Part shown: piece by piece, positions 38,461-44,765 of the stretch
Position numbering within the stretch: position 1 is the stretch's first letter
Layout: each line of letters starts with the position of its first letter
Origin: an uncultured Parabacteroides sp.
GTDB taxonomy: Bacteria > Bacteroidota > Bacteroidia > Bacteroidales > Tannerellaceae
Direction: 5' to 3'
Length of the DNA: 64,000 nt
NCBI GenBank assembly: GCA_944325355.1
Contig: CALUZS010000010.1
Coordinates: 1 to 64,000, forward strand
Position numbers and translations under genes: made by a program
The notes under the pieces: generated by a model
Told to the model about the DNA's origin: nothing
What the model saw: the letters and a program-made list of their open reading frames with translations, nothing else
Databases searched by the model: none

Positions 38461-38564
38461 TCGCGTTCCGGAATAGGTAAGGAATTTGTTTGTGATAAAA
38501 AGCGAATAAAAACATGTTCTTACTGAAAAAATGAAAGAGAAAACTATATTTTTCTTTTAATTTC

Positions 38565-38595
38565 TTTGTTTATTCCGATTAAAGTCCTACATTTG
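38565..38595 (+). promoter_or_regulatory. ilvDp: promoter of the ilv operon
   Basis: TTTG (38565-38568), exactly 19 bases, TACATTTG (38588-38595): a perfect Bacteroidota promoter. The transcript would begin near 38602, giving a leader of about 207 bases before ilvD. Confidence 0.8.
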
Positions 38596-38645
38596 CGCCA
38601 CTGAACAGGTAATTGAAGTTAAATAGCAACAAAGAGATTTTGTAG

Positions 38646-38705
38646 ATGACAACGAATATATTGCATATTATTCTCGTGGTGGTCCTTCTAGTTATTAGCA
38701 GGTGA
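38646..38705 (+). CDS. ilvL: ilv operon leader peptide, 19 residues, Ile/Leu/Val-rich
   Basis: An ATG-to-TGA frame encodes MTTNILHIILVVVLLVISR. Twelve of 19 residues are Ile, Leu or Val, the three products of the pathway encoded downstream, with ten of them in one unbroken run (residues 8-17). It lies about 44 bases after the predicted transcript start and 103 bases before ilvD. The last sense codons overlap strand 1 of the RNA switch (38684-38689) and the stop touches strand 2 (38706). This is the geometry of a ribosome-sensed attenuator, functionally like E. coli IlvL but without sequence likeness. It is too short to be predicted by gene finders. Confidence 0.82.
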   Translation: MTTNILHIILVVVLLVISR

Positions 38706-38790
38706 GGAGAAGGGTATGCAAATCGTTTTTGTTAGTTATTAATAAATAGAGAGCCTTTCTCCTTGCAAAGAGGGAAAGGCTCTTTAGTTT
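38684..38790 (+). promoter_or_regulatory. transcription attenuator of the ilv operon
   Basis: Four RNA strands can pair in exclusive ways. Strand 1 CCTTCT (38684-38689, leader codons 13-15) pairs with strand 2 AGAAGG (38708-38713). Strand 2 GGAGAAGGG (38706-38714) pairs alternatively with strand 3 CCTTTCTCC (38754-38762), 9 bp with one G-U. Strand 3 AGAGCCTTTC (38750-38759) forms a perfect 10-bp terminator stem with strand 4 GAAAGGCTCT (38774-38783), followed by TTTAGTTTT. A ribosome stalled at the Ile/Leu/Val run covers strand 1 and frees strand 2 for the antiterminator. A ribosome reaching the stop covers strand 2 and lets the terminator form. Confidence 0.85.
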
Positions 38791-38808
38791 TATAGGAGAA
38801 TTTGATAA

Positions 38809-40644
38809 ATGAAGAATCCGTTAAGAAGTTCACTTAGCACTGAAGGACGCAGGATGGCAGGGGCGCGTGCTTTATGGCGGGCAAATGGAATGACAGAAGA
38901 ACAATTCGGAAAGCCGGTCATTGCAGTTGTCAATTCTTTTACACAGTTTGTCCCTGGGCATGTGCATTTGCATGAAATTGGTCAGTTCGTGAAAAAGGAG
39001 ATAGAGAAATTAGGCTGTTTTGCAGCCGAATTCAATACGATAGCCATAGATGATGGCATAGCGATGGGACACGATGGAATGCTTTATTCGTTGCCGTCTC
39101 GTGATATTATCGCCGATAGTATTGAGTATATGGTCAACGCCCATAAAGCCGATGCGATGATTTGTATCAGTAACTGCGATAAAATCACACCGGGGATGCT
39201 TATGGCTGCAATGCGGTTGAATATACCGACAGTATTTGTGTCGGGAGGTCCGATGGAAGCCGGCGAGTGGAATGGACGGCATCTCGATTTAATCGATGCG
39301 ATGATTGAAGCTGCTGATACATCTGTGAGCGATGCCCAGATAGCCGAGGTCGAGCGTCATGCTTGTCCTGGTTGTGGTTGTTGCTCGGGGATGTTTACCG
39401 CTAATTCGATGAACAGCCTGAATGAAGCGATAGGTCTTGCTCTTCCGGGGAACGGTACGATTGTGGCTACACACATCAACAGGCTGCGGCTTTTTAAAGA
39501 TGCAGCCGAGCTAATCGTAAAGAATGCATATAAATATTACCAGGATGGTGATGCTTCGGTCTTGCCGCGCAGCATTGCAACAAGACAAGCTTTCCTGAAT
39601 GCGATGTCTCTCGATATAGCGATGGGTGGTTCCACAAATACCGTCTTGCATTTGTTGGCAGTGGCTCAGGAGGCCGGGGTGGATTTTTCGATGGATGATA
39701 TTGACATGTTGTCGAGGAAAATACCGTGTCTCTGTAAAGTGGCCCCGAATACGCAGAAATATCATATACAGGATGTGAATCGTGCCGGCGGAATTATTTC
39801 TATAATGAATGAGCTGTTGAAAGCCGGACTGGTGGACGGTTCAGTCAAACGGGTAGACGGTTTGACGTTGGCTCAGGCGGCAGACCGTTATGCGATAACC
39901 TCAGACCATGTGATGGATACGGCAATTCAAAAATGTAAGAGTGCTGCGGGAAATAAGTTCTGTCTCCGGATGGGTATGCAAGAGAATTATTATGAAACGC
40001 TTGATACCGACCGCGCGTCAGGATGTATCCGGGATATTGAGCATGCCTATTCGAAAGATGGCGGTCTTGCCGTATTGAAAGGAAATATTGCTGAAGACGG
40101 ATGCGTAGTGAAGACGGCAGGTGTGGACGAAAGTATTTGGAAGTTTTCAGGAACTGCTAAAGTGTTCGATTCGCAAGAATCTGCTTGTGATGGTATTCTT
40201 AATGGCGAGGTTCAGTCTGGCGATGTTGTCGTAGTCGTTTATGAAGGGCCGAAGGGCGGACCGGGTATGCAGGAGATGCTATATCCTACTTCCTATATTA
40301 AAAGCCGTCATTTGGGAAAAGAGTGTGCTTTGATTACAGACGGGCGTTTTAGCGGAGGAACATCTGGCCTGTCAATAGGGCATGTTTCTCCGGAAGCAGC
40401 TGCAGGTGGTGCAATTGGGCTGGTTAGGAATGGAGATATCATTGAAATAGATATTCCGGCACGTCGCATAAATGTGAAACTGACAGACGAGGAATTGGCT
40501 ACCCGTCGTCGGGAAGAAGAGATGCGTGGGAATAAGGCTTTTACACCTCCTTGCCGCAAACGAGAAGTTTCGAAAGCTCTAAAGGCGTATGCTAAAATGG
40601 TTAGTTCGGCAGATAAAGGCGGTGTCCGGATTGTTGAAGATTGA
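38809..40644 (+). CDS. ilvD: dihydroxy-acid dehydratase
   Basis: A 611-residue Fe-S dehydratase that converts 2,3-dihydroxy-isovalerate or -methylvalerate to the 2-keto acid in Val/Ile (and Leu) synthesis. Cluster-ligand motifs are [10 protein letters not shown] (Cys123) and [17 protein letters not shown] (Cys186-Cys192). The sequence is very close to the E. coli type. It is first gene of ilvD-ilvB-ilvN-thioesterase-ilvC, behind the attenuator. Its TGA overlaps an ATG (40644) of the next frame. Confidence 0.98.
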
Positions 40645-40667: not shown

Positions 40668-42362
40668 ATGACAGAAGAATATATAACAGGTGCAGAAGCA
40701 TTGATGCGTTCCCTTGAACGTCAAGGGGTGGATACTTTGTTCGGTTATCCTGGCGGTTCTATTATTCCAGTATTCGATGCGCTGTATGACCATCGTGACA
40801 AGTTACGTCATGTATTGGTACGTCATGAGCAGGGTGCCGCACATGCAGCTCAAGGATATGCACGGGTTTCCGGGAAAGTAGGCGTTTGTTTGGTGACAAG
40901 CGGACCGGGAGCTACCAATACGATTACAGGTATTGCCGATGCGATGATGGATAGTACGCCGCTTGTTGTGATTGCAGGTCAGGTTGGTACATTATTGCTT
41001 GGAACGGATGCCTTTCAGGAAGTGGATTTGGTAGGAGTCACCCAACCGATTTCCAAATGGAGTTACCAGATACGTCGAGCGGAAGATGTGGCTTGGGCTG
41101 TAGCACGTGCTTTTTATATCGCAGGAAGTGGTCGATGTGGTCCGGTGGTTCTCGATTTTGCGAAAAATGCTCAAGTAGAGAAAACCGTATATAAACCTAC
41201 GGTAGTAGATTTTATCCGCAGTTATGAGCCGGTTCCAGATACAGACCAGGCAAGTGTGGAGAAAGCTGTTAAGCTTATCGATGAAGCGGAGCGCCCGTTG
41301 GTGCTTGTCGGCCATGGCGTTGAACTGGGAAATGCGCAGAAAGAGCTGCAAATGTTTGTTGAAAAGGCAGATGCACCTTGTGGTTGTACGCTTTTAGGGC
41401 TTTCGGCTTTGCCAACATCCCATCGGTTGAATAAAGGAATGCTGGGAATGCATGGGAATTTGGGACCGAATGTGAAGACAAACGAGTGTGATGTGCTGAT
41501 AGCGGTAGGTATGCGGTTTGACGACCGGGTTACCGGAAACTTGGATTCGTATGCACGTCAGGCAAAAATTATTCATTTGGATATTGATCCTTCGGAAATC
41601 AACAAGAATGTAAAGGTTGATGTTGCCATTTTGGGCGATTGCAAGCAGACCATATCTCTTTTGTCGCAGAAAATACGGAAAAATAGCCACACTGAATGGA
41701 TAGATAGCTTTAAAAAATATGAAGAAGAGGAGTATAAATCAGTTATCAGCAAAGAGCTCTTCCCTGCATCCGGTCCGTTGAATATGGGCGAGGTTGTACG
41801 GGCGGTCAGCGATGCCGTAAACGATGACGCTGTTCTTGTTACGGATGTGGGACAGAACCAGATGATGGCAGCACGCTATTTCCGGTATAAAAAAGAGCGC
41901 AGTATTGTTACTTCAGGAGGATTGGGTACGATGGGATTCGGTTTGCCGGCTGCTATCGGTGCAACTTTCGGACAGGAGCGGACGGTCTGTGTGTTCATGG
42001 GAGATGGTGGTTTGCAAATGAACCTGCAGGAATTGGGTACGGTAATGGAACAGCAGGCTCCGGTGAAGATGATTTTGTTGAATAATAATTACCTGGGTAA
42101 TGTGCGGCAGTGGCAGGCAATGTTTTTTAACCACCGGTATTCCTTTACTCCAATGCTCAATCCCGATTATATGAAAATCATGTCTGCATATGGAATCCCT
42201 GCAAGGCGGGTGATGAGCCGGGACGAACTGGCGGATGCAGTCAAAGAGATGTTGTCGACCAAAGGGGCTTTTTTCCTTGAAGCGTGCGTTATTGAAGAGG
42301 GAAATGTCTTGCCAATGACACCTCCCGGAGCGTCGGTAAATTATATGTTGCTGGATTGTTAA
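40668..42362 (+). CDS. ilvB: acetolactate synthase large subunit
   Basis: A 564-residue ThDP enzyme that condenses pyruvate with pyruvate or 2-ketobutyrate. I chose the ATG at 40668 because AAGGAAAATATA precedes it and MTEEYITGAEAL matches the family start. An in-frame ATG at 40644 overlaps the ilvD stop and would add eight residues. Motifs are FGYPGGS, the catalytic Glu54 in RHEQGAAHAAQGYAR, and the ThDP/Mg motif GDGGLQMN to NNNYLG (about 444-475). The small subunit follows. Confidence 0.97.
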   Translation: MTEEYITGAEALMRSLERQGVDTLFGYPGGSIIPVFDALYDHRDKLRHVLVRHEQGAAHAAQGYARVSGKVGVCLVTSGPGATNTITGIADAMMDSTPLVVIAGQVGTLLLGTDAFQEVDLVGVTQPISKWSYQIRRAEDVAWAVARAFYIAGSGRCGPVVLDFAKNAQVEKTVYKPTVVDFIRSYEPVPDTDQASVEKAVKLIDEAERPLVLVGHGVELGNAQKELQMFVEKADAPCGCTLLGLSALPTSHRLNKGMLGMHGNLGPNVKTNECDVLIAVGMRFDDRVTGNLDSYARQAKIIHLDIDPSEINKNVKVDVAILGDCKQTISLLSQKIRKNSHTEWIDSFKKYEEEEYKSVISKELFPASGPLNMGEVVRAVSDAVNDDAVLVTDVGQNQMMAARYFRYKKERSIVTSGGLGTMGFGLPAAIGATFGQERTVCVFMGDGGLQMNLQELGTVMEQQAPVKMILLNNNYLGNVRQWQAMFFNHRYSFTPMLNPDYMKIMSAYGIPARRVMSRDELADAVKEMLSTKGAFFLEACVIEEGNVLPMTPPGASVNYMLLDC

Positions 42363-42374
42363 CAAAAATAGGAT

Positions 42375-42935
42375 ATGGATAAAACATTATATACATTGAT
42401 TGTCTATTCTGAGAATATCGCCGGTTTGTTGAATCAGGTTACGGCTGTGTTTACAAGGCGGCAGATAAACATAGAAAGTCTGAATGTCTCAGCTTCTTCG
42501 ATTGATGGTGTCCATAAATATACCATTACAGCATGGACCGATGAGGACACGATAAAGAAAGTGGTAAAGCAGATTGAGAAAAAAATAGATGTTTTGCAGG
42601 CCCATTACTTTACCGACGATGAAATTTTCCTGCAAGAAATAGCTCTGTATAAAATATCGACACCCGAACTGCAATCGAATGCGAATGTCTCGAAGATTAT
42701 CCGCCGTTACAATGCGCGGATAGTAGAAGTTAATTCTGTCTATTCGATTGTGGAAAAACCGGGTCTGACGGAAGAGATCATCGCCTTGTATAAGGAGTTG
42801 CAGGAAGCCGGTTGCGTCTTGCAGTATGTCCGTTCCGGTCGGATTGCGATAACCAAAAGTCGTGTGGAACGTATTAACGAATTCCTTGCCGGCAGGGAAG
42901 AGAAACATCGTCATTGTTATAATGATTTGAATTAG
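42375..42935 (+). CDS. ilvN: acetolactate synthase regulatory small subunit
   Basis: A 186-residue protein. The N-terminal ACT domain (about 3-80; LIVYSENIAGLLNQVTAVFTR near 8-28, then INIESLNVS) binds valine for feedback control. The C-terminal ALS_ss_C-type domain (about 85-175) contacts IlvB. It starts 12 bases after ilvB. Confidence 0.96.
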   Translation: MDKTLYTLIVYSENIAGLLNQVTAVFTRRQINIESLNVSASSIDGVHKYTITAWTDEDTIKKVVKQIEKKIDVLQAHYFTDDEIFLQEIALYKISTPELQSNANVSKIIRRYNARIVEVNSVYSIVEKPGLTEEIIALYKELQEAGCVLQYVRSGRIAITKSRVERINEFLAGREEKHRHCYNDLN

Positions 42936-42951
42936 CATAGGATTGGATGTC

Positions 42952-43677
42952 ATGGATAAAGTCGGTCTGTTTACTTTTACGGTAGAGCCTTATCTGACGG
43001 ATTTCCGCGGACAGGTTACTTTGGCGATGCTTGGAAACTACTTGATTCATGCAGCATCGAACCATGCAGCGTGCCGGGGATTTGGGTTTGATGACATGAC
43101 GGAGAACCATACGGCATGGGTCTTGTCCCGTTTGGCAATAGAAATGCAGGATTATCCGCGTTCGGGAGCGTCGGTTTCTCTTTATACTTGGATAGAAGGT
43201 GCGGGAAAATTGTTCACCAGCCGTTGTTTTGAATTTGTGGACGGAAAAGGGAAAACTTTCGGGTATGCCCGTTCTGTCTGGGCGGCAATCGATATTCGGA
43301 CAAGACGTCCAACCTTGCTGGATGTCGAAGAATTGAATCGGTATATCGTTGAGCGTCCGTGTCCGATAGCGACCCCGAAGAAAATTCCTCCGGTGGAAGC
43401 GCAGGTGAATGGTATTCCCTATACAGTGAAATATAGCGATTTGGATATAAATGGGCATTTAAACAGCATCAAATATATTGAACATTTGCTGGATTTGTTT
43501 GATTTGGAACGGTTCAAGCAGAAACAAATCGAGCGTTTCGAAATCGCTTATTTGTCGGAAGGACGCTATGGAATGGAACTTTCGTTGCATTCCATGGAAG
43601 TTTCGTCAGATCATTATCGGATGGCGATATGCAATGACGGTAAGGCAATATGCCGCGCTGAAGTTGTTTGGAAATGA
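42952..43677 (+). CDS. acyl-ACP thioesterase (FatA/FatB type) within the ilv operon
   Basis: A 241-residue tandem hot-dog protein (ATG 42952; the TTG at 42943 is less likely). The first hot-dog spans about 1-140 and carries TENHTAWVLSR. The second (about 155-241) holds DLDINGHLNSIKYIEHLLD, the D-x-N-x-H-x-N catalytic block known from plant acyl-ACP thioesterases. It releases free fatty acids from ACP. It is placed between ilvN (16-base gap) and ilvC (44-base gap), so fatty acid release is under branched-chain amino acid control, which suggests a link to branched-chain fatty acids (inference). Confidence 0.92.
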   Translation: MDKVGLFTFTVEPYLTDFRGQVTLAMLGNYLIHAASNHAACRGFGFDDMTENHTAWVLSRLAIEMQDYPRSGASVSLYTWIEGAGKLFTSRCFEFVDGKGKTFGYARSVWAAIDIRTRRPTLLDVEELNRYIVERPCPIATPKKIPPVEAQVNGIPYTVKYSDLDINGHLNSIKYIEHLLDLFDLERFKQKQIERFEIAYLSEGRYGMELSLHSMEVSSDHYRMAICNDGKAICRAEVVWK

Positions 43678-43721: not shown

Positions 43722-44765
43722 ATGGCAGTTATAAATTTCGGCGGTGTTGACGAGAATGTTGTTACCCGCGAAGAATTTCCTTTGGAAAAAGCAAGAGAAG
43801 TATTGAAAGATGAAGTAATCGCCGTCTTGGGCTATGGTGTACAAGGTCCGGGACAGAGCTTGAATCTTCGAGATAATGGTTTTAATGTGATTGTAGGACA
43901 GAGACCCGGGAAAACTTACGACAAGGCTGTGGCTGATGGCTGGGTTCCGGGTGAGACATTGTTCGGCATAGAAGAAGCTTGTGAAAAAGCAACTATCATA
44001 CAGGTTCTTCTGTCGGATGCTGCACAAATACAGTGCTGGCCGATAATAAAGAAACATTTGACAGCAGGTAAAGCGCTTTATTTCTCTCACGGTTTTGCTA
44101 TTACCTATAACGACCGGACGCATATCGTTCCTCCGGCAGACGTGGATGTTATTATGATTGCGCCGAAAGGTTCTGGAACCTCTCTCCGACGGATGTTTTT
44201 GCAGGGAAGAGGTTTGAATTCAAGTTACGCAATATACCAGGACGCTACCGGTAAGGCATGGGATCGTGTAGTCGCATTGGGTATCGGTGTTGGTTCCGGT
44301 TATTTGTTTGAAACGACATTCAAGAAAGAAGTTTATTCCGACTTGACCGGTGAACGCGGAACATTAATGGGGGCAATACAGGGATTGTTGTTAGCTCAGT
44401 ATGAGACGTTGCGTGAACATGGTCACGAGCCTTCGGAAGCATTTAATGAAACGGTAGAGGAGTTGACACAGTCGTTGATGCCGTTGTTCGCTGAAAACGG
44501 AATGGATTGGATGTATGCAAACTGTTCCACTACGGCACAGCGTGGCGCATTGGATTGGATGGGACCGTTCCATGATGCGGTAAAACCTGTTTTTGAAAAG
44601 TTATATAATGAGGTGGCTTGTGGTAATGAAGCTCAACGCTCGATAGACACGAACAGCCAGCCGGATTACAGGGAAAAACTGAATGCCGAGCTGAAGGCAC
44701 TTCATGACAGCGAAATGTGGCGTGCCGGAGCTGTCGTACGGAAACTCCGTCCAGAAAACAACTAA
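43722..44765 (+). CDS. ilvC: ketol-acid reductoisomerase, class I length, eukaryote-like sequence
   Basis: A 347-residue enzyme that isomerises and reduces acetolactate or acetohydroxybutyrate with NADPH and Mg2+. The cofactor loop reads GYGVQGPGQSLNLRDNG in place of the bacterial GSQGHAQALNL type. The C-terminal segment, with DWMYANCSTTAQRGALDW, SQPDYREKL and VRKLRPEN, closely matches yeast Ilv5 as I recall it. It is last gene of the operon, followed by a strong terminator. Confidence 0.97.
   Translation: MAVINFGGVDENVVTREEFPLEKAREVLKDEVIAVLGYGVQGPGQSLNLRDNGFNVIVGQRPGKTYDKAVADGWVPGETLFGIEEACEKATIIQVLLSDAAQIQCWPIIKKHLTAGKALYFSHGFAITYNDRTHIVPPADVDVIMIAPKGSGTSLRRMFLQGRGLNSSYAIYQDATGKAWDRVVALGIGVGSGYLFETTFKKEVYSDLTGERGTLMGAIQGLLLAQYETLREHGHEPSEAFNETVEELTQSLMPLFAENGMDWMYANCSTTAQRGALDWMGPFHDAVKPVFEKLYNEVACGNEAQRSIDTNSQPDYREKLNAELKALHDSEMWRAGAVVRKLRPENN

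Follow-up and report, generated by a model that had tools for sequence, protein, structure and literature searches.

The leaders of the ilvGMEDA and ilvBN operons of E. coli combine a peptide rich in isoleucine, leucine and valine (ILV) with alternative pairings of the leader RNA, and they sense Ile, Leu and Val together. In the Bacteroidota, Shine-Dalgarno signals are mostly absent. A survey from 2010 placed leader-peptide systems in the Proteobacteria and Actinobacteria and then added the Firmicutes (PMC2965389). In Corynebacterium a leader or an upstream ORF with an attenuator precedes ilv genes, as described for the ilvBNC leader and the ilvB-II uORF in the passages considered here (PMC11857589, PMC10272879). 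Within the Bacteroidota, the list of Weinberg and co-workers includes Bacteroid-trp (RF01692; PMC2864571), and a transcriptome study of Flavobacterium psychrophilum speaks, in the part considered here, of 'strong clues' for leader peptide attenuation before amino acid biosynthesis operons (PMC9723704). Small ORFs (sORFs) that recall leader peptides are mentioned in the first B. thetaiotaomicron transcriptome paper (PMC7366714), whose relevant passages, like those of the 2024 atlas (PMC10994844), name no ilv case. In the open-access literature searched we met no experimental work on an ilv leader from the Bacteroidota, although an earlier description elsewhere is possible. On the absence of such systems from the phylum the initial annotation went too far: leader-peptide attenuation in general is not without precedent there, given Bacteroid-trp (PMC2864571) and, from the passages cited, the Flavobacterium candidates (PMC9723704).

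In this work we have analysed the region upstream of ilvD in a window of 64,000 nucleotides, the whole stretch of DNA under study, from an uncultured Parabacteroides sp. We conclude, with a probability of about 0.92, that this region is a classical ribosome-mediated transcription attenuator of ilvDBN-(thioesterase-like)-ilvC, sensing charged Ile-, Leu- and Val-tRNA. The basis of this reading is the anatomy of the leader, its conservation, the covariation of its strands and the consequence of each ribosome position for the fold. The features concerned are the following.

38565 to 38568, plus strand: -33 element TTTG of a Bacteroidota-type promoter, read from the sequence
38588 to 38595, plus strand: -7 element TACATTTG of the same promoter, read from the sequence and kept in congeners
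38646 to 38705, plus strand: leader peptide ORF, MTTNILHIILVVVLLVISR and stop codon, its frame conserved in an alignment of 35 near-relative sequences
38661 to 38675, plus strand: strand 1, codons 6-10 (Leu-His-Ile-Ile-Leu), partner of strand 2 by minimum free energy (MFE) fold, near-relative alignment and covariation across the order
38704 to 38721, plus strand: strand 2, GAGGAGAAGGGTATGCAA, from fold, covariation, sequence and near-relative alignment
38747 to 38786, plus strand: terminator hairpin, strands 3:4, predicted at -23.7 kcal/mol by MFE fold, core pairs conserved
38752 to 38764, plus strand: strand 3, AGCCTTTCTCCTT region, common to antiterminator and terminator, from 2:3 conservation and the swapped-partner test
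38784 to 38794, plus strand: interrupted U-tract, TTAGTTTTATA region, read from the sequence
38809 to 40644, plus strand: ilvD, dihydroxy-acid dehydratase (NF009103, 1055 bits; TIGR00110, 795 bits)
40674 to 42362, plus strand: ilvB, acetolactate synthase large subunit (TIGR00118, 683 bits)
42375 to 42935, plus strand: ilvN, acetolactate synthase small subunit (TIGR00119, 91 bits)
42943 to 43677, plus strand: acyl-ACP thioesterase-like ORF within the operon (ORF call; residue pattern only)
43722 to 44765, plus strand: ilvC, ketol-acid reductoisomerase (TIGR00465, 307 bits)

With the E. coli leaders this one shares the ILV-rich peptide, the alternating pairings 1:2, 2:3 and 3:4 and the predicted multivalent sensing of Ile, Leu and Val. 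No sequence relation to them was seen, however, promoter type and gene order are different, and the ilvDBN-ilvC order, the 19-codon leader and a strand 1 made from codons 6-10 are features of its own. Bacteroid-trp comes from the same phylum and also has a leader peptide with cognate codons before a biosynthetic operon, but it serves Trp sensing before trp genes, and the ilv leader gives no match to its model. The Corynebacterium cases, as far as the passages cited above describe them, differ in phylum, RNA and operon, whereas the F. psychrophilum candidates belong to the same phylum and another order, and the passages concerned neither name the operons nor describe covariation at the level of strands (PMC9723704). 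As for the ORF between ilvN and ilvC, it had no NCBIfam match in a profile search, and its residue pattern suggests a thioesterase-like function, possibly linked to branched-chain fatty acids. By its position it would come under the same branched-chain attenuator.

The two promoter elements are separated by 19 nt, and the transcript presumably starts near 38600. A sigma-70 scan and a simple terminator scan of the window gave no relevant site and did not list the hairpin at 38747-38786, as expected from the phylum's own promoter type and the interrupted T-run. In the leader ORF, which we infer to be translated, 12 of the 19 residues are Ile, Leu or Val, the last of them at codon 17. The 1:2 hairpin (38661-38675 with 38707-38721 in the MFE fold and the alignment) takes in the leader coding region. 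Strand 2 (GAGGAGAAGGG...) begins within the leader stop codon; its 5' part is the arm of the antiterminator, 38706-38714 with 38754-38762, which has nine pairs, one of them G-T, and most of strand 2 is the partner of strand 1. After a spacer of about 30 nt follows the intrinsic-terminator hairpin, located between the leader ORF and ilvD, the first structural gene, with a perfect core of 10 bp (38750-38759 with 38774-38783). Termination probably takes place here, on an interrupted U-tract (CTCTTTAGTTTTATAG) that is weaker than those of most relatives, whose T-runs are clean. The region 38640-38800 as a whole folds at -53.4 kcal/mol, compared with -33.7 (sd 3.6) in dinucleotide shuffles (z -5.5). 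The initial annotation had described a promoter at 38565-38595, a 19-codon frame at 38646-38705 with 12 Ile/Leu/Val codons, a 9-bp antiterminator sharing bases with the terminator and a stop codon at strand 2, and all of these were found again, the last as an overlap. From its description of the terminator the 10-bp perfect stem stands, while the T-run proved to be interrupted. A second correction concerns a protector pairing it had placed at 38684-38689 with 38708-38713: the six pairs exist in the window, but they are not conserved, the second (38685/38712) being unpaired in 30 of the 35 near relatives. We have rejected 38684-38689 as the general strand 1, since the conserved stem is 38661-38675/38707-38721.

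According to the attenuator model, transcription would begin near 38600 and a ribosome would start the 19-codon leader at 38646. With ample branched-chain amino acids the ribosome would reach the stop codon, which overlaps strand 2, and by covering this strand would leave strand 3 free for strand 4, so that RNA polymerase would stop near 38790. If any one of Ile, Leu and Val were short, the ribosome would stall within codons 5-17, on or past strand 1 and short of strand 2; 2:3 would then pair before strand 4 was made, and the operon would be read. With no translation at all, 1:2 and 3:4 would form and transcription would stop. It is in this way that the leader should respond to amino acids.

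To what extent is this arrangement kept among relatives? We compared the DNA upstream of ilvD in about 160 genomes and counted 158 regions; the IlvD homologues came from 39 genomes of the genus, 80 named genomes and 119 sampled genomes of the order, 49 of these with this IlvD type. In 108 of the 158 regions there is an ATG frame in which 8 or more of 12 codons are for ILV, as against 1.9% of dinucleotide shuffles; frames with 10 or more of 12 occur in 40% of the regions, as against 0.05% of shuffles. Almost all genomes of the genus have M(M/L)NNVLHIILVVVLLVISR or a near variant. At loci labelled Bacteroides, Phocaeicola, Odoribacter, Alistipes, Prolixibacteraceae and Paludibacter, among others, the peptide differs and the ILV richness stays; from family to family the sequence varies freely while the ILV content is kept. 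No ILV-rich leader was present in the ilvD upstream regions of Prevotella- and Desulfobulbaceae-labelled loci and of several order-level genomes. Among ilvD matches outside the order, at the level of the phylum, there are only scattered ILV frames, some with 8-10 of 12; five loci elsewhere in the phylum (L230, L231, L242, L243 and L247) have frames of 8-9 of 12 before an ilvD of a different type. The promoter is kept as well, TAnnTTTG standing ahead of the leader ATG in 65 of 76 dereplicated leaders (mean in shuffles 6.8), in 47 of these 65 with TTTG at a spacing of 17-23 nt.

Two variations of the layout were seen. Marinifilum sp. D714 (L102), Labilibaculum sp. K2S (L111), G133 (L140) and possibly L158 have two tandem ILV-rich frames before ilvD; in L102 and L111 both frames have a separate hairpin and T-run. 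These frames are candidate double attenuators in series. At L003, L007, L163, L115, L037 and L126 the leader frame crosses strand 2 and has its stop codon up to about 30 nt farther on, which indicates that the position of the stop codon relative to strand 2 is flexible.

The hairpins of the relatives also bear on the question of whether the leader might expose or hide the ilvD start and act on translation instead of termination. Such control would agree with the end of the hairpin lying only about 22 nt from the ilvD ATG and with the imperfect U-tract of the window. However, when terminators were sought behind the leaders, clean T-runs were found directly after the hairpin in most relatives, and the distance from leader stop codon to ilvD varies widely, from 93 to 169 nt within the genus. 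We consider control at the level of translation very unlikely.

We also asked whether the strands which exchange partners change together. In the near-relative alignment, whose 35 sequences represent the genus and one other Tannerellaceae genome (L033), the 2:3 core is paired in 99.7% of cells, the 3:4 core pairs are likewise conserved, and the stem 38655-38675/38707-38729 is 90% paired with 10 double changes. Across the order we used a swapped-partner test on 66 dereplicated leaders picked for clear 2:3 pairing (own energy of -9 or lower). The 2:3 pairing had -14.0 kcal/mol with its own partner and -10.9 with swapped partners (sd of the permutation mean 0.25, z -12.3), the 1:2 pairing -17.1 and -12.9 kcal/mol (sd 0.33, z -13.0), and in both tests the observed mean lay beyond all 10,000 permutations, although these z-scores ignore phylogeny and shared base composition and could be somewhat inflated. 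Before picking, all 77 dereplicated leaders gave -13.1 for own and -10.4 for swapped 2:3 partners, and here too the observed mean lay beyond every permutation. Whole strands have been exchanged together, as AGGGAGGGCTG/CAGCCCTCC in L120, ATCGGTATG/GCCGATTTC in L146 and CCCGGAAA/TTTCCGGGT in L147. Relative to the end of the stop codon, strand 2 of the dereplicated leaders begins at a median of -3 nt.

We also simulated the effect of the ribosome by masking the bases it covers and folding the transcript as it is before strand 4 has been synthesized. The edge of the footprint was set, as an assumption from E. coli toeprints, 15 nt downstream of the first P-site base. In the window, 2:3 forms with the ribosomal A-site at codons 2-17 and is blocked at codons 18 and 19 and at the stop; a stall at every Ile, Leu or Val codon (5-17) thus allows the antiterminator, and as codon 17 is the last of these, the switch point immediately follows the sensing run. 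In all 66 leaders, 2:3 is blocked when the ribosome is at the stop codon. The initial annotation had inferred a stall logic like that of E. coli attenuation, which works in these simulations, and had proposed a test of conservation and covariation among relatives, which was passed by the leader frame, 2:3 and the 3:4 core. Several points count against the attenuator model, among them the interrupted U-tract and the missing leaders named above. Without a ribosome, the partial transcript favours 2:3 over 1:2, and with strand 4 transcribed, the terminator beats 2:3 at equilibrium in every ribosome state. From these two observations it follows that the switch must be kinetic, and on this model ribosome and polymerase would have to move in step. 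The leaders are further enriched in rare Leu codons compared with seven genes of the window (CTA 21% and 2%, CTC 20% and 5%, respectively), in agreement with the theory of why rare regulatory codons heighten the sensitivity of E. coli and Salmonella attenuators (PMC1183508).

Could the RNA be read by a ligand or a protein, in the manner of a riboswitch or of PyrR or TRAP, with a terminator behind it and the ORF incidental? The length of the 5' UTR and its mutually exclusive hairpins would be compatible with this, and a weak sub-threshold match of the PyrR model (28 of 54 bits, E 0.06) overlaps the region. The Rfam covariance models gave nothing at gathering score near 38500-38900, however, neither a T-box nor another cis-regulatory leader, and no conserved aptamer core is apparent outside the pairing strands. 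The ILV content of the frame is kept while peptide and RNA sequences change, and the stop codon of the dereplicated leaders stays at strand 2. A ligand- or protein-read leader is in our view very improbable. The matches at relaxed threshold (PyrR, mir-471 and a plastid 3' UTR) are below gathering score and we read them as chance. Elsewhere in the window, at 484-555, Rfam recognizes a FopS sRNA (RF04319, a Bacteroidetes family of paralogous sRNAs; 72.8 bits).

The attenuator reading is strengthened by leaders of other operons, since in ten genomes, nine relatives and the source genome itself, the residues in which a leader is rich correspond to its operon, with His before hisG, Trp before trpB, and ILV before leuA and ilvD, the null for this comparison being a simpler dinucleotide-block shuffle. 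Examples are the His runs before hisG (MKTVALHHHHHHYNGQ; in the source genome MKQNIYWAHHNLHYHYQRALVR), Trp before trpB (MKTFIVNTYWWWRSVQLKRS; in the source genome MKQATVNTLFWWRLLQLQKS) and Ile/Leu before leuA of the source genome (MKLVQANSLIISLSIILLWERDRK). At the loci read, a terminator-like hairpin follows each his, trp and leu leader. One or another of the his, trp, leu and ilv leaders is missing in some genomes. In the source genome, contigs C4, C5 and C24 (loci L170, L175 and L193) carry His-rich, Ile/Leu-rich and Trp-containing leaders before hisG, leuA and trpB, and judging from these sequences attenuation looks like a general strategy there. Rfam applied to eight his, leu, trp and ilv loci gave a single match at threshold, RF01692 Bacteroid-trp at the trp locus of a congener (L191); this model had no match at gathering score in the window or in L002, and none of the ilv, his and leu leaders searched matched any family, including the his and leu loci of the source genome. 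It is hardly credible that the ORF is a functional gene for a small hydrophobic peptide with its own terminator, placed upstream of ilvD by chance or for co-regulation and with no attenuator: the peptide does resemble a short membrane segment and is almost identical in many congeners, but across families we saw no conserved residues beyond the ILV composition, for which reason a peptide with its own function was rejected, and moreover the stop-codon region covaries with the 5' arm of the terminator and his and trp operons are preceded by the same layout with codons for His or Trp.

The mechanism of attenuation is ordinary and already known, though scarcely described in this group, and the novelty of our finding is limited, as Bacteroid-trp and the Flavobacterium clues came earlier. 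The interesting part is its breadth in the phylum. The attenuator reading is well supported, and the leader is conserved across the Bacteroidales and has no Rfam match. It adds a small ORF and a cis-element which Rfam annotation misses, and it extends amino-acid-sensing leaders in the Bacteroidota from trp, the one Rfam family met, to the branched-chain, leucine and histidine operons. We think it probable that the Bacteroidales run the whole classical set of attenuators (ilv, leu, his and trp) and that some lineages have ILV attenuators in tandem. If so, this set would imply a working coordination of ribosome and polymerase at leader mRNAs in the Bacteroidota, and the ilv leader offers a ready test of whether the two keep step in this phylum. 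The Bacteroidales are abundant in the human gut and the leader is conserved across the order; very probably these bacteria sense amino acid shortage by stalled ribosomes, as E. coli does.
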